Virus record (IMG/VR): IMGVR_UViG_3300031800_000008 | Location: 1-34,655 of that record | Length of the DNA stretch: 34,655 nt | Reading direction: 5' to 3' (one strand) | Origin: a virus | Part shown: positions 5,690 through 16,017 of the stretch, piece by piece | Layout: each line of letters starts with the position of its first letter | Numbering within the stretch: position 1 is the first letter of the stretch | Made by a program: the position numbers and the translations under genes | The notes under the pieces: generated by a model | Databases searched by the model: none | Told to the model about the DNA's origin: nothing | What the model saw: the letters and a program-made list of their open reading frames with translations, nothing else

Positions 5690-6308
5690 TTTGTGCTTCG
5701 TATCCCTTGATCTCTTCTATGTATTCCTCTGTATGTGATAGTCTCTTCTGGTCAGCATTATGAATCTCTTTCGTGTATTCAATGCGCTGCTCCCTGCGTC
5801 GATGTAAAGTTTCTAGCAACTCTGCGTCTGTCAGTTGATCGTAAGAGGTCTTCTCGCTGTGTTCTATCTTCGCAGCAGTCTCCTTGGGTAATATATCCTT
5901 TACTATATAACGCATGAAGAATCCAAGGATTTGTTTCCCGTCTTCCGTGTGCGGGTCTGCCATCTCTGCCATTACCGCTATCTTATCGAATAACCCCACC
6001 TCGCTCAGTTTGTTTACAAAGTCTGATTTAATCTGTAATGATGTCTTCGGGTTGTACTTCTCCTGATGCTTGCTTTCCAATCTGGGTCTGCCTTTACTAA
6101 TCTCATACCAACTACGAAACTCTTCGTCATTGTTGATTGCCGAGATAGCAACCTCGTAGGGAATGCCAGCAGTCTTGGCTGCGTCATAGAAATGCAAGCC
6201 TCGACCTATTGCCGATTCCATGTCCGACCTGCGTTTCTCCCTGATTAAGAACGCCCCTACCTTCTCTTGTCGTTCCGTCTTTACTGGTATTTCCTTGCTT
6301 AAACTCAT
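5661..6308 (-). CDS. probable terminase small subunit
   Basis: The small subunit would recognise phage DNA and hand it to the large subunit. The open frame extends to 6470, but the ATG at 6308 (MSLSKEIPVKTERQEKV...) is favoured: further extension runs through the divergent promoter and the opposite gene. The 215-residue protein has a DNA-binding-type segment at ~35-70 (AIGRGLHFYDAAKTAGIPYEV..., helix-turn-helix-like), a helical centre that could oligomerise (~100-150), and a highly charged C-terminus. Evidence is position and the helix-turn-helix pattern, so the call is good but not certain. A GGGGAAAGAAG stretch just upstream may be the ribosome site. Confidence 0.75.
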   Translation of the reverse strand: MSLSKEIPVKTERQEKVGAFLIREKRRSDMESAIGRGLHFYDAAKTAGIPYEVAISAINNDEEFRSWYEISKGRPRLESKHQEKYNPKTSLQIKSDFVNKLSEVGLFDKIAVMAEMADPHTEDGKQILGFFMRYIVKDILPKETAAKIEHSEKTSYDQLTDAELLETLHRRREQRIEYTKEIHNADQKRLSHTEEYIEEIKGYEAQNGTDTGTVT

Positions 6309-6906: not shown

Positions 6907-6988
6907 GAGGGACTTAAAGAATCTATCCAATCTAAGGCGATGATGTATATTGAAGTCAAAAAGGAAAGACCCACTACCTCAGAAGATA

Positions 6989-7267
6989 GTGGTCATAGTC
7001 TGGAAAGATATAATATCTAGAGCAGACTGGGTCGGAACTATCTCAGAAATTAAAAAAGAGATGGAACCTGTCCTATGCGTAACTGTCGGTTGGATAGTAG
7101 ATAAAACAAAAGAAAAAATAACCCTAGCCGACTCCTTTACAGAAGATCATGACTTTGGAGGGGTTACCTCCATACCCACTGAAGTAGTTGTAAAGATATT
7201 CGACCTTGACTCTAAATCCCCCATAAAGTATATCAACAATACGTCGCAAGAAAGAAGTGCGCCATAG
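6989..7267 (+). CDS. hypothetical small phage protein
   Basis: The frame is open from a TTG at 6950, but the GTG at 6989 gives a start MVIVWKDIISRADWVG... that looks like the natural beginning of a compact beta-rich fold. Later segments are CVTVGWIVDKTKEKITLADSF and DFGGVTSIPTEVVVKIFDL, with alternating strands and turns, resembling short W-D-I proteins common in phages. No function is known to me. There is no strong ribosome site at either start, only AGAAG just before the GTG. It is followed by the GTG-started gene at 7276. Confidence 0.65.
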   Translation: MVIVWKDIISRADWVGTISEIKKEMEPVLCVTVGWIVDKTKEKITLADSFTEDHDFGGVTSIPTEVVVKIFDLDSKSPIKYINNTSQERSAP

Positions 7268-7275
7268 GGGGAAAC

Positions 7276-7533
7276 GTGAACTCGGTAATTGAAGTATTAA
7301 TAGAAAAAAATCCAGAAGCAGTCATTCTGGTAGGCTTCGACGATTGCCTCATAGGAACTACCTGTATATGCGGTAAAGCACCCGTAGCCGTCTATTCCAC
7401 TAATATGATAATAGAGAAATTACAGGAAAGAGATCTTGACGAAGAGGACGCATGGACTCATTATTACCATGAGATCGAAATGGTTGACCTGGGTAAGCAC
7501 TCTCCTCAAATGCTTAATCTTGACATTACTTGA
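7276..7533 (+). CDS. hypothetical small phage protein, FDDCLIG family type
   Basis: An 85-residue product with a GTG start and AGGGGG six bases upstream. It has the pattern AVILVGFDDCLIGTTCICGKAPVAVYS followed by a helix (TNMIIEKLQERDLDEEDAWTHYYHEIEM). Similar short proteins with a D-[AC]-L-I-G core, a VYD/VYS strand and an E-E/D-A-x-x-[YH] helix are widespread in phage early regions but have no assigned activity that I know of. It ends 15 bases before a strong terminator and so closes the first early operon. Confidence 0.8.
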   Translation: MNSVIEVLIEKNPEAVILVGFDDCLIGTTCICGKAPVAVYSTNMIIEKLQERDLDEEDAWTHYYHEIEMVDLGKHSPQMLNLDIT

Positions 7534-7548
7534 CCCCTACTTGTTTTT

Positions 7549-7590
7549 CCGGTCCCTAGTTTCATGGGTTGCTAGGGGCCGGTTTTATAT
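7549..7590 (+). terminator. rho-independent terminator of the first early operon
   Basis: CCGGTCCCTAG (7549-7559) pairs with CTAGGGGCCGG (7572-7582), an 11-pair stem with one G-T wobble and a 12-base loop, followed directly by TTTTATAT. It lies just after the stop at 7533. Confidence 0.85.
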
Positions 7591-7618
7591 TCGTCATTGT
7601 GGATGCGGGATATATATA
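7591..7618 (+). promoter_or_regulatory. possible promoter for the hairpin segment
   Basis: TCGTCA (7591-7596, 4 of 6 to the -35 consensus) stands 16 bases before TATATA (7613-7618). Transcription would begin near 7625, at the base of the first GC-rich hairpin and just past the preceding terminator. The match is weak and needs start-site mapping. Confidence 0.3.
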
Positions 7619-7619
7619 G

Positions 7620-8414
7620 CAAGCCGCTCCAACGGCCTCGGGGGGCCTACCCCCCTCGGCCTCAAGGCGGAGTGATCTGAAGATCACCAGTATTGTTATT
7701 ATTGTAGATAATCACGCCTGTGACTTTGTAATGACTCTCAAAGGATATCCACAGTGGGGGGTATTACTAAGTTTCGAGTGAACTGTGATTATACAATAAT
7801 AAAGAACGAAACAAAACGAAACGAAACAAAACAATACTGGGTCGCTTTGCGACCTGATCTTCCTTGGGGGCAATAGGGAAGCCCCTTCGGTTCCCTCGCC
7901 CCCAAACCCCTGGCACCCTTCCGCTCGCTCGCTCGCGGGTGAGCACAGGCCGCACGGGAAATAAATCCTCACTAAAAATCACGGAGGATTTTTACGTCGA
8001 TCAAAGATCGCCGCCGTTCCGGTTTATTTCCCTACGTTGGCTTTGCCAACTATCTTGTTGGTGTTCTCCGTCTTAAAGGGACGAAGAACCTGACTGCATG
8101 GCCTTGATACTACACACGGAACGGGCACCGGGAGCCTGAAGGCTCCCTGAGTACCAACAGAGGAACCTCCATGCCTGGAGAACCCTCTGTCTCGATTCCC
8201 GCATGAACAGGAATCGCCTCTGCCCTTCCCATGTAAATTGCTTTTTCCGAAAACTTTTTCTAGTCTACAACTGCGGGAAAAACTTTTCAAAAAACTCCCT
8301 TCGGTCGGCTCGTCGAGCAGCACTTGACATGGGACTTCGGTCGGGCCGTTCGCTTCGCTCACTTTACGGCCGCCAGCGACCTACCCTCCTCCTTAGTGCA
8401 GTATCGGAGAGAGT
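7620..8414 (+). ncRNA. hairpin-dense region without a convincing gene; candidate large structured RNA or origin
   Basis: About 800 bases, richer in G/C than the neighbours, with no reading frame that has both a start signal and sensible composition. Perfect or near-perfect stems seen: 7640-7655 (6 G:C pairs), 7672-7687 (7), 7840-7854 (6, TTT loop), 7866-7903 (6+6), 7956-8032 (10, outer), 7998-8010 (5), 8036-8050 (6, TTT loop), 8063-8089 (9 with one mismatch), 8130-8147 (7, TGAA loop), 8157-8190 (7+5 with mirrored AAC internal loops), 8193-8216 (7), 8344-8371 (6). A long-range pairing joins 7688-7715 to 7785-7839. Bracketing terminators at 7549 and 8961 suggest a separate transcript. A role as a large structured RNA of the GOLLD/ROOL kind is inference; I cannot match it to any family by eye. 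Confidence 0.45.
7807..7831 (+). repeat. A-rich short direct repeats
   Basis: CGAAACAAAA occurs at 7807-7816 and 7822-7831 with an extra CGAAA between. The tract lies on the 3' side of the long-range stem and should stay single-stranded. It could be an iteron-like or unwinding element; this is a guess from composition. Confidence 0.4.
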
Positions 8415-8954
8415 GTGACAGTTGTCAGTGTTTTTTTTGATACCCTAGAGGGGTATCTAGATAGGTTGGTCAACATGACACAACCCAGAACAAAGTCTTC
8501 GAAGAAGACTTCCAAGAAGAAGTCTTCGAAGACTGGTCGCAAGGTTGCGACCAAGAAAGCCAAGGAAATCATACTGATTCCTTTGGCTTTCGTCATCGTC
8601 GGAATCCGTCAGACGCTTCATACGGATTCCATTCCCGAAGGTCCATTTGCCGTTGCCTCTTATGGAGGCAACATGGACTTCTGGAACTTTGACTTCTTCA
8701 AGAAGCACCACGACCAGGTGGTCGGTGTCGGTGGTCCGGACGGTTTCATGTCCAGACGTACCACCAAGGTCGGAAACAAGTGGGTTTCCGAACTTGATTC
8801 CGAACCGGGTTCACTTCTTGAAGAAGCCAATGCCGAACTTGAACCTTTGGGGTTCAAGGTCGGATCAGTCCACAACGGGATCGACCCCAACAACTCGACT
8901 TCGAGTTGTTTAGATCACATGGTTGACACCATGAATGATCTGATCGACAGTTGA
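8415..8954 (+). CDS. hypothetical basic protein encoded by hairpin-filled DNA
   Basis: Two starts are possible: GTG at 8415 with GGAG five bases upstream (179 residues), or ATG at 8475 (159 residues). From the ATG the protein opens with a Lys/Ser/Thr-rich basic tail (KSSKKTSKKKSSKTGRK), then a hydrophobic strand (IILIPLAFVIVGI), a Gly/Phe/His-rich middle (YGGNMDFWNFDFFKKHHDQVV), and an acidic C-terminal half. No family is recognised; the tail suggests nucleic-acid binding. Codon choice (mostly AAG, GAC, AAC, GTC) differs from the A-rich genes downstream. At least 12 stem-loops, several with perfect 8-10 base-pair arms, occupy the coding DNA. A strong terminator follows directly, so it is the only gene of its transcription unit. 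Confidence 0.7.
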   Translation: MTVVSVFFDTLEGYLDRLVNMTQPRTKSSKKTSKKKSSKTGRKVATKKAKEIILIPLAFVIVGIRQTLHTDSIPEGPFAVASYGGNMDFWNFDFFKKHHDQVVGVGGPDGFMSRRTTKVGNKWVSELDSEPGSLLEEANAELEPLGFKVGSVHNGIDPNNSTSSCLDHMVDTMNDLIDS

Positions 8955-8960
8955 GGACTG

Positions 8961-9008
8961 ACTAGGGACTGTCTAGCCTTGGGGCTAGGCAGTCCTTAGT
9001 TTTTTTTT
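8961..9008 (+). terminator. very strong rho-independent terminator
   Basis: ACTAGGGACTGTCTAGCC (8961-8978) pairs with GGCTAGGCAGTCCTTAGT (8983-9000), 18 pairs with two G-T wobbles and a TTGG loop, running into a long T-tract. It ends the transcript carrying the hairpin-filled gene. Confidence 0.92.
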
Positions 9009-9029
9009 CAAAAAACTATTAAGGGATTC

Positions 9030-9110
9030 GGGCGTAGCCCTCATATAGATTTCTTAATAAGGAATCCTATTCGGATAGGATTCATTTCAAGATTTTGCTA
9101 AGGCAAAATC
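9030..9110 (+). other. three further hairpins before the main early operon
   Basis: GGGC/GCCC (9030-9040, GTA loop), GAATCCTAT/ATAGGATTC (9062-9083, nine perfect pairs, TCGG loop) and GATTTTGC/GCAAAATC (9091-9110, eight perfect pairs, TAAG loop) continue the hairpin series past the terminator. No gene is seen between 8955 and 9200. Confidence 0.7.
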
Positions 9111-9151
9111 GTCAGCGCATCAGATATAGTGACAGTTAATCTGCTAAGACA

Positions 9152-9179
9152 TTGAATAAATAAACTCATGTAATAAAAT
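9152..9179 (+). promoter_or_regulatory. probable promoter of the A-rich early operon
   Basis: TTGAAT (9152-9157) and TAAAAT (9174-9179), 16 bases apart, with a predicted start near 9186. AAGAAGGAAC leads into the ATG at 9201. The position just after the strong terminator and hairpin series, and before ~6 kb of packed co-directional genes, supports it. Confidence 0.5.
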
Positions 9180-9200: not shown

Positions 9201-9857
9201 ATGGATAGCATAACAATACTACATGAATGGAAACATGAACAAGACTTTGATCATGTTGAAAGATTTGCAAAGAGATTCGAATCAAATAATACAGGTGCGG
9301 AGGATTACCCAGTACCAAAGTCAGTAAGAGAAGCCATGTTTGGATGCAATGATAAGGACGCAGCCCACCGTGAAGAGTTTGGAATAGAGGGTACTAAATG
9401 GCACGCCTATGAACGTGCAGTTGGTTCAGATCCAAGTGAGAGTAAATACATTACAATATGTGTACGACTAAACTGTAATTGGACTATTGATATTCAAATC
9501 CTAGGTGGAACACCAACTGAACCAACAAGGACTCTTGTAATAAGTGATGTTCTTTATGGAAGAATAGGTAAACCAACAGGTGAATACGAGACAATCACAA
9601 GAGGTATCTTTGTCAATTCAGAAGGCGAAAGAGAAAAGTGTATGAGTTATCATGCTCGATCTTGGATAGTAGACTTAGGTATGTACCCACTATGGTTAAG
9701 ATATGACAAACTTTTAAATAATAAACTTGTCATTACATTTCCAGCAACAGAGATCACTCCATTCGAGACTATGGGTATTGGATTCACTCCAGAACAACAA
9801 GAGATACATGAAAGTTACAGACAGTGGCGAAGAGTTGAAAGAAGGAATAAGAAATGA
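9201..9857 (+). CDS. hypothetical early protein
   Basis: A 218-residue first gene of the A-rich operon with a good AAGAAGGA ribosome site. I do not recognise it. It has a charged helical N-terminus (ILHEWKHEQDFDHVERFAKRF), a central region of alternating strands (YITICVRLNCNWTIDIQILGG, then RTLVISDVLYGRIG), a second beta-rich section, and a basic Arg/Lys-rich C-terminus (YRQWRRVERRNKK). No signal peptide or membrane helix is seen. It overlaps the next gene by ATGA. First position in the operon suggests an early takeover role, which is inference only. Confidence 0.8.
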   Translation: MDSITILHEWKHEQDFDHVERFAKRFESNNTGAEDYPVPKSVREAMFGCNDKDAAHREEFGIEGTKWHAYERAVGSDPSESKYITICVRLNCNWTIDIQILGGTPTEPTRTLVISDVLYGRIGKPTGEYETITRGIFVNSEGEREKCMSYHARSWIVDLGMYPLWLRYDKLLNNKLVITFPATEITPFETMGIGFTPEQQEIHESYRQWRRVERRNKK

Positions 9858-15342: not shown

Positions 15343-15399
15343 TGGCAATGGTAATCTTCCTGACGGTCAGGGAGTACCAATCTACTGCGGCGATCACTA

Positions 15400-16017
15400 G
15401 TGGATACTGTAATGATAGACCGGATTACATTTAGCGATCTCGCTTGTGTAGTCCGGTCTGCTTTTCATCCTATCAGAATATTAAGATTACTGAAAGGCTA
15501 TACTTTACGATCATTATCTGCTAGAACAAGTCTTACCTGGATGGGGATACACTTCATCGAGATTCAGAAACGCAACCCACTTCCTGAAACTGTATATAAA
15601 TTAGCAAAGGCTTTAGGGGTAAACCCTGCTGAATTATATGTCAAATGTTTGGAGTACAATATGGAAAAGGTAAGCCATGCAAGTAAGAAAACATTAAGAA
15701 TAGTAGCAAAGAAAGGAGAGACACCCAATCAAATGCTTGCTCGATTGGTACACAGGCAACTACATCCTATTAATATACACCTAGATAAGATTGAAAAATC
15801 TGCTGCTAACTTCCTGAAGGAGATCAATGTCAGCCGAGCCACGCTTAAGAACTGGCTTGACATGAAGAATACTCCTAGCGTTAAAGCATTGCGTAAAATT
15901 TCAGAAGGATTTGGAATCACCTTAGACGATCTGCTCTACAGCATAGAAGAATGGAATGAGGAAGATCTTTCTGATTCAATTGGTTACATCGAATACAACA
16001 TTCATAGATTGGAATAG
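15400..16017 (+). CDS. regulator with two helix-turn-helix domains
   Basis: Start GTG at 15400 or ATG at 15412; neither has a strong ribosome site. After a ~20-residue leader comes an XRE-type domain (IRILRLLKGYTLRSLSARTSL..., ...ETVYKLAKALGVNPAELY, ~25-85). A linker follows, then a second domain (FLKEINVSRATLKNWLDMKN, ...VKALRKISEGFGITLDDLL, ~137-185). Two such domains in one 205-residue chain could bind paired operators or act as an early/late switch. A terminator-like stem-loop lies within its first codons. It sits between the small-gene operon and the recombination genes, a natural place for a regulator. Confidence 0.78.
   Translation: MDTVMIDRITFSDLACVVRSAFHPIRILRLLKGYTLRSLSARTSLTWMGIHFIEIQKRNPLPETVYKLAKALGVNPAELYVKCLEYNMEKVSHASKKTLRIVAKKGETPNQMLARLVHRQLHPINIHLDKIEKSAANFLKEINVSRATLKNWLDMKNTPSVKALRKISEGFGITLDDLLYSIEEWNEEDLSDSIGYIEYNIHRLE
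15418..15466 (+). promoter_or_regulatory. terminator-like stem-loop in the start region of the regulator gene
   Basis: GACCGGATTACA (15418-15429) pairs with TGTAGTCCGGTC (15447-15458), 12 pairs with one wobble; within it AGCG (15433-15436) pairs with CGCT (15441-15444). TGCTTTT follows. It could be an attenuator, or the end of the upstream operon with the regulator read from another transcript. Confidence 0.6.

Follow-up and report, generated by a model that had tools for sequence, protein, structure and literature searches.

Why is a stretch of about 1.5 kb in a double-stranded DNA phage, a gene included, filled with short hairpins, and are these selected in RNA, selected in DNA, or produced by the copying of the DNA itself? 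The locus is located in a 34,655-bp IMG/VR virus record, which was analyzed over its whole length and is called the window here. The phage is a member of a T7-like marine podovirus group. T7-like late genes (portal-type connector, terminase, internal virion protein, tail) lie on its minus strand, and the early operon on the plus strand encodes ArdC, a RecE-like exonuclease, RecT, and a helix-turn-helix repressor.

The original prediction, made by eye, had described positions 7590-9110 as saturated with short perfect hairpins, and this was borne out by counting. The segment contained 23 perfect hairpins (arm ≥6, loop 2-8) as compared to a mean of 2.5 (sd 1.5) in dinucleotide shuffles; the maximum among 200 shuffles was seven. 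As for the spacing of one stem-loop every 40-60 bases stated there, perfect hairpins occurred once per ~66 nt, and stems once per 49 nt when mismatched ones were counted as well (31 stems vs 12.3 shuffled). A scan of the whole window with a sliding frame of 1520 bases revealed 12 perfect hairpins with arms ≥8 at 7601-9120 and none in any stretch that does not overlap the segment, in agreement with the statement that the surrounding DNA looks different. Folding energies were compared with shuffled controls in 150-nt windows, as had been proposed, and the mean z-score was -3.48 inside 7590-9110 and -0.24 (sd 1.13) elsewhere. Measured with one yardstick, mean z was -3.71 for the segment, -3.02 for the genome of MS2, and -0.73 for the rrnB operon of E. 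coli. Both strands of the segment folded similarly (mean z -3.7 and -4.0), and G-U pairs made up 6.6% of its minimum free energy (MFE) pairs vs 11.8% elsewhere.

Hairpins disregarded gene limits: as described, they were found in gene-free DNA, within the coding sequence 8475-8954, and beyond its terminator (9015-9110). The segment (G+C 0.49-0.51) is indeed richer in G/C than the next 4 kb to the right (0.32-0.38), but not than the DNA to the left (0.41-0.53). The hairpin excess of 7590-9110 is real, strong, and unlike anything else in the window. This 1.5-kb stretch of a DNA phage, gene included, holds near-perfect short hairpins at a density equal to or above that of an RNA-phage genome. Such folding in a dsDNA phage, within a gene, is unusual; a search of the open-access literature found no account of a hairpin-saturated DNA-phage segment.

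The limits of the segment were also correctly placed. On its left lie two conserved early plus-strand genes, gene A (6950-7267, 105 aa, 26 loci, phrog_25889), which is the left anchor in relatives, and gene B (7276-7533, 85 aa, 16 loci, phrog_13182), followed by their intrinsic terminator at 7549-7588 (plus strand, CCGGTCCCTAG...CTAGGGGCCGG, then T-rich), which has a counterpart in relatives. On its right lies a promoter-like site at 9152-9179. Directly after the first terminator, the conserved plus-strand motif GTGGATGCGGGATATATA (7599-7616), promoter-like or origin-like, occurs as a single copy in the window (0.03 expected), and a conserved G6/C6 hairpin (7640-7655) comes right behind it. 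The gene-free, hairpin-rich, hypervariable part extends from 7640 to 8474. It includes element 1 (8233-8328), a long imperfect hairpin GTAAA...TTGAC with similar counterparts in the related genomes L030, L025, and L028, which surrounds an AT-rich hairpin (8243-8294) with a C-C mismatch, AAAACTTTT in both arms, and the loop GTCTACAACTGCGGG. The conserved TTGAC was not retained as a sigma-70 site, as no -10 box was seen by eye at the right spacing. An ORF of 159 aa (8475-8954, plus strand) follows, then an intrinsic terminator (8960-9009, plus strand, 19-pair stem and T run) with equivalents in the relatives read, and finally the post-terminator hairpins at 9015-9110, with perfect arms of 9 and 8 bp and one imperfect hairpin.

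Genes A and B and the variable genes could not be assigned to a functional family in Pfam, nor in PHROGs where tried, and ARAGORN identified no tRNA in the window or in 12 related loci. For the 218-aa gene to the right of the segment (9201-9857), the search used likewise found no relative in IMG/VR; variability therefore reaches beyond 9110. This gene, used as a query, also found no closer relatives of the phage.

The 159-aa ORF is saturated with hairpins, has a GC3 of 0.59, and is without a homologue in the collections searched: IMG/VR gave no match, BLASTN and tblastn against phage records matched neither segment nor protein, and hhalign of the relatives' variable genes against it indicated no relationship (probability 0.1). 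An AlphaFold model (pLDDT 37) was too low in confidence for use. The MFE of the ORF was -215 kcal/mol as compared to -150 (sd 6.4) for synonymous-codon permutations, an excess of ~65 kcal/mol with z about -10 to -11. Without the lysine/serine-rich first 23 codons z was still -7.6, and 14 other genes of the window gave values from +0.7 to -3.4 in the same test. The ORF thus shows a folding excess over synonymous permutations as found in RNA-phage coding structure; none of the 480-nt coding chunks from MS2, Qbeta, PP7, and AP205 reached its 65.8 kcal/mol. The two strands were equal (z -11.3 and -11.4), and the longest perfect arms measured 10-12 bp. Stems in the codon registers 1-3/2-2 were mildly in excess (88 pairs vs 65.5, sd 12), a figure that does not separate the models.

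The synonymous test was then carried out with G-U pairs forbidden, and 20 structured coding chunks of the same four RNA phages served as controls. In the ORF, the energy difference increased from -65.8 to -78.5 (ratio 1.19), and the remaining parts of the segment gave ratios of 1.02-1.70. The RNA-phage chunks averaged 0.87; two of the 20 lay above 1 (1.23 and 1.30), both of modest excess. Neither the G-U contribution nor the strand preference expected of RNA-selected coding structure was found in the window ORF. Because the excess is equal on both strands and grows when G-U is forbidden, with RNA phages as controls, palindromes generated or kept in DNA are favored. The formation of palindromes in DNA, absent from the explanations listed in the original prediction, fits such Watson-Crick-only, strand-symmetric pairing best. 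A count of stem G-T against A-C mismatches was dropped as evidence, since it was strand-neutral in the window but gave the same result for the MS2 control. The forbidden-G-U test with RNA-phage controls may serve elsewhere.

Relatives were recruited with terminase and genes A and B as queries, which yielded some 30 IMG/VR contigs; annotated phage records gave no match, a comparison of terminase and gene A with GTDB genomes found no host prophage, and the collections searched held no close relative of the window. A scaffold is kept in the IMG/VR relatives: terminator, single-copy motif GTGGATGYSGGATATATA, G/C-run hairpin, gene-free DNA, a small gene of high GC3, and terminator. When eight genomes were aligned together, motif and G/C-run hairpin stood at one and the same place. 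The motif was detected in 16 IMG/VR stretches, all of this phage group, among them L067, which was newly found in this way; the more distant gene A relatives L042 and L049 are without it. Behind the motif, several hundred to ~900 bases without a conserved gene precede the small gene, whose GC3 was 0.53-0.71 vs 0.23-0.45 in the upstream gene (nine genomes), and a strong plus-strand terminator follows it in the relatives read. For the pair L033/L067, dN/dS of the small gene was 0.37, which supports a real coding gene at this spot in these two genomes. Between the scaffold points the sequence is hypervariable and cannot be aligned, so that the relatives have the locus but neither its sequence nor the 159-aa protein. 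Saturation is extreme in the window only, and clear but weaker in L030 and L028. The ORFs of L024 and L025 showed a weaker coding excess, larger on the plus than on the minus strand (z -3.2/-0.6 and -4.1/-2.6), and those at the same place in L030, L028, and L035 showed none. From the sequences compared, the locus is a resident, hypervariable, early one with a conserved scaffold of motif, hairpins, small gene, and terminators. In L030, a second hairpin-dense stretch (5700-6000) follows the small gene; it is largely gene-free, and its sequence is unlike that of the window.

Covariation across the window and three relatives was found for the AT-rich hairpin, the remainder not being alignable. This hairpin (AAAACTTTT in both arms, C-C mismatch, loop GKCTACAACTNCGGG) was found in L025, L030, and L028 as well as in the window; 4 of its 18 pairs changed on both sides and are still paired. 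The longer hairpin enclosing it is marked by GT[A/C]AA...TTGAC in most of the four genomes. A second rod-like element, whose core is confined to this phage group, follows the small gene in relatives (L033:10222-10390, L067 4485-4655 on the minus strand, L028:9945-10115); by the search made it is seemingly absent from the window, where simple hairpins stand instead. L033 and L067 retain both rods through whole-helix replacements: within near-identical flanks, helices were swapped on both arms (CGC/GCG to AAGT/ACTT; GC to CG on both arms), as read from a comparison confined to these two genomes. Selection probably acts on the conserved hairpins of the scaffold too.

Some further elements were observed in the relatives. 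In L033/L067, a strong Shine-Dalgarno sequence (AAGGAG) that directly precedes a downstream start codon is paired within the base of the second rod, which could act as a translational switch. A block AACAAAACCTCTCCGGGTTCTGTTCGAATCCAGGTGG resembling a tRNA T-arm is common to L028 (~7990-8031) and L035 (~9578-9620); ARAGORN identified no tRNA there. Tandem hairpins CCAGCN..NGCTGGACC in the gene-free segment of L028, L030, and L035 showed paired changes between genomes by eye. Upstream of element 1 in L024, L025, and L030, a minus-strand TATAAT-like box (GAGCATTATACC and variants) could be a promoter from which transcription would run leftward across the gene-free segment.

We tentatively favor, at a little short of an even chance, a hypervariable early locus in which palindromes are made and repaired by template switching around the conserved scaffold. 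In the window lineage, the sequence between the scaffold points, ORF included, would have become crowded with short inverted repeats. While the DNA is replicated, the growing strand would fold back on near-palindromes and be copied from its own complement (template switching, quasipalindrome conversion); such copying would yield perfect arms and repair mismatches in both arms together, and within the ORF purifying selection would leave only protein-compatible events. We infer this mechanism, and also that the spot may be a hotspot owing to the manner of replication or recombination, RecE/RecT-like proteins being encoded. If template switching is at work, arms should pair by Watson-Crick rules only, the two strands should be alike, gene limits should not matter, turnover should be fast, and compensations should span several bases; the mechanism would explain the symmetry, the few G-U pairs, and the indifference to gene boundaries. 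Multi-base compensations were observed for the pair L033/L067; for the lineage of the window, the collections searched held no close relative in which such an event could show. Against this explanation, very stable selected RNAs may be G-U-poor too, selection is also needed to keep the scaffold hairpins at their conserved positions, and the restriction to this 1.5 kb is left unexplained.

Template switching creates and maintains hairpins, and multi-base compensatory changes were attributed to it (PMC8794818). The perfect stems described here, and the multi-base paired changes between L033 and L067, resemble these; those cases, however, are RNA genes studied by ancestral reconstruction, whereas we infer template switching for a saturated 1.5-kb locus. 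In Nematomorpha, mitochondrial coding genes contain inverted repeats with the protein kept; a repeat-conversion mechanism was suggested and template switching mentioned (PMC6649704). The window ORF likewise holds inverted repeats, with constraint shown for the L033/L067 gene only. The nematomorph arms are perfect and ≥15 bp long (mean 43, up to 142) (PMC6649704), whereas the perfect arms here measure 6-12 bp, in a phage, and occupy noncoding DNA too. We consider it rather unlikely that template switching at a fixed hypervariable site serves as a palindrome generator, writing hairpins into noncoding DNA and a constrained early gene and diversifying the gene with its frame kept; if true, a dsDNA phage would possess a source of variation based on hairpins. 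Should the hairpins arise from copying at the DNA level, the locus would be a natural test bed for hairpins and compensatory changes without RNA selection, and would bear on the reading of covariation as proof of RNA function.

The main rival to template switching is selection at the RNA level, which is possible, but which we would not expect to be the cause. An early plus-strand transcript of ~1.4 kb, possibly from ~7625 to 9009, would be kept tightly folded. It could serve as a long structured leader, as a noncoding RNA, or as an mRNA that is shielded from host or defence ribonucleases while a host-takeover protein is expressed early. Folding density on a par with RNA-phage genomes, the large coding excess, plus-strand terminators on both flanks, the covarying AT-rich hairpin, and the raised GC3 in nine of nine genomes are consistent with it. 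In L024 and L025, the closest relatives, the plus strand is favored, so that RNA may contribute as well. In folding density and energy, the coding sequence is comparable to that of the ssRNA phages MS2, Qbeta, PP7, and AP205; their structure, however, mostly weakens with G-U forbidden, whereas that of this dsDNA phage strengthens. The missing strand preference in the window, the hairpins continuing beyond the terminator, and the ORFs of L030, L028, and L035 without excess also speak against selection in RNA. If it does cause the hairpins, the segment would give rise to a new kind of phage early transcript.

A GOLLD/ROOL-like RNA, as suggested in the original prediction, was not supported. Large phage RNAs of this kind often lie near tRNA islands and conserve their structure through covariation. 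The long gene-free phage DNA could encode a structured RNA of a length similar to the GOLLD/ROOL/OLE ornate RNAs (PMC12286853), but the Infernal/Rfam search that had been proposed gave no match at gathering score and only chance-level matches to other families at a relaxed E-value, a tRNA island is lacking, and the sequence is mostly not conserved among relatives, in contrast to those families. Another large structured RNA is possible, because the relatives read have a plus-strand terminator behind the gene and a hairpin covaries in four genomes.

Selection of DNA structure, with the hairpins acting in single-stranded or cruciform DNA at a replication origin or a packaging/recombination site, appears unlikely. 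It would agree with the strand symmetry, the conserved single-copy motif, the direct-repeat AAAACTTTT element, and a local minimum of cumulative GC skew at ~8000-8500; furthermore, no replicase, helicase, or primase was recognized among the early genes scanned, and TTGTGGATG beside ATATATATA is a putative DnaA-box-like or unwinding site. However, GC skew is confounded, as it tracks gene strand, the DnaA-box likeness was judged by eye only, saturation is not kept in relatives that would need the same origin, and an origin does not require a coding gene filled with hairpins. A transferred element, also proposed originally, is improbable, as the locus is resident: throughout the phage group it keeps its left flank and its conserved scaffold. 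An ordinary cluster of regulatory hairpins, terminators, and a low-complexity N-terminus without common cause is very improbable: some hairpins are terminators and the AAG/CTT codons of the lysine/serine tail (8493-8534) pair readily, but the excess survives removal of the first 23 codons as well as codon permutation, and the density far exceeds that of all other parts of the window. Elsewhere in the window, an isolated structured stretch (15390-15539, z -4.06) was observed at the start of a repressor-like gene.
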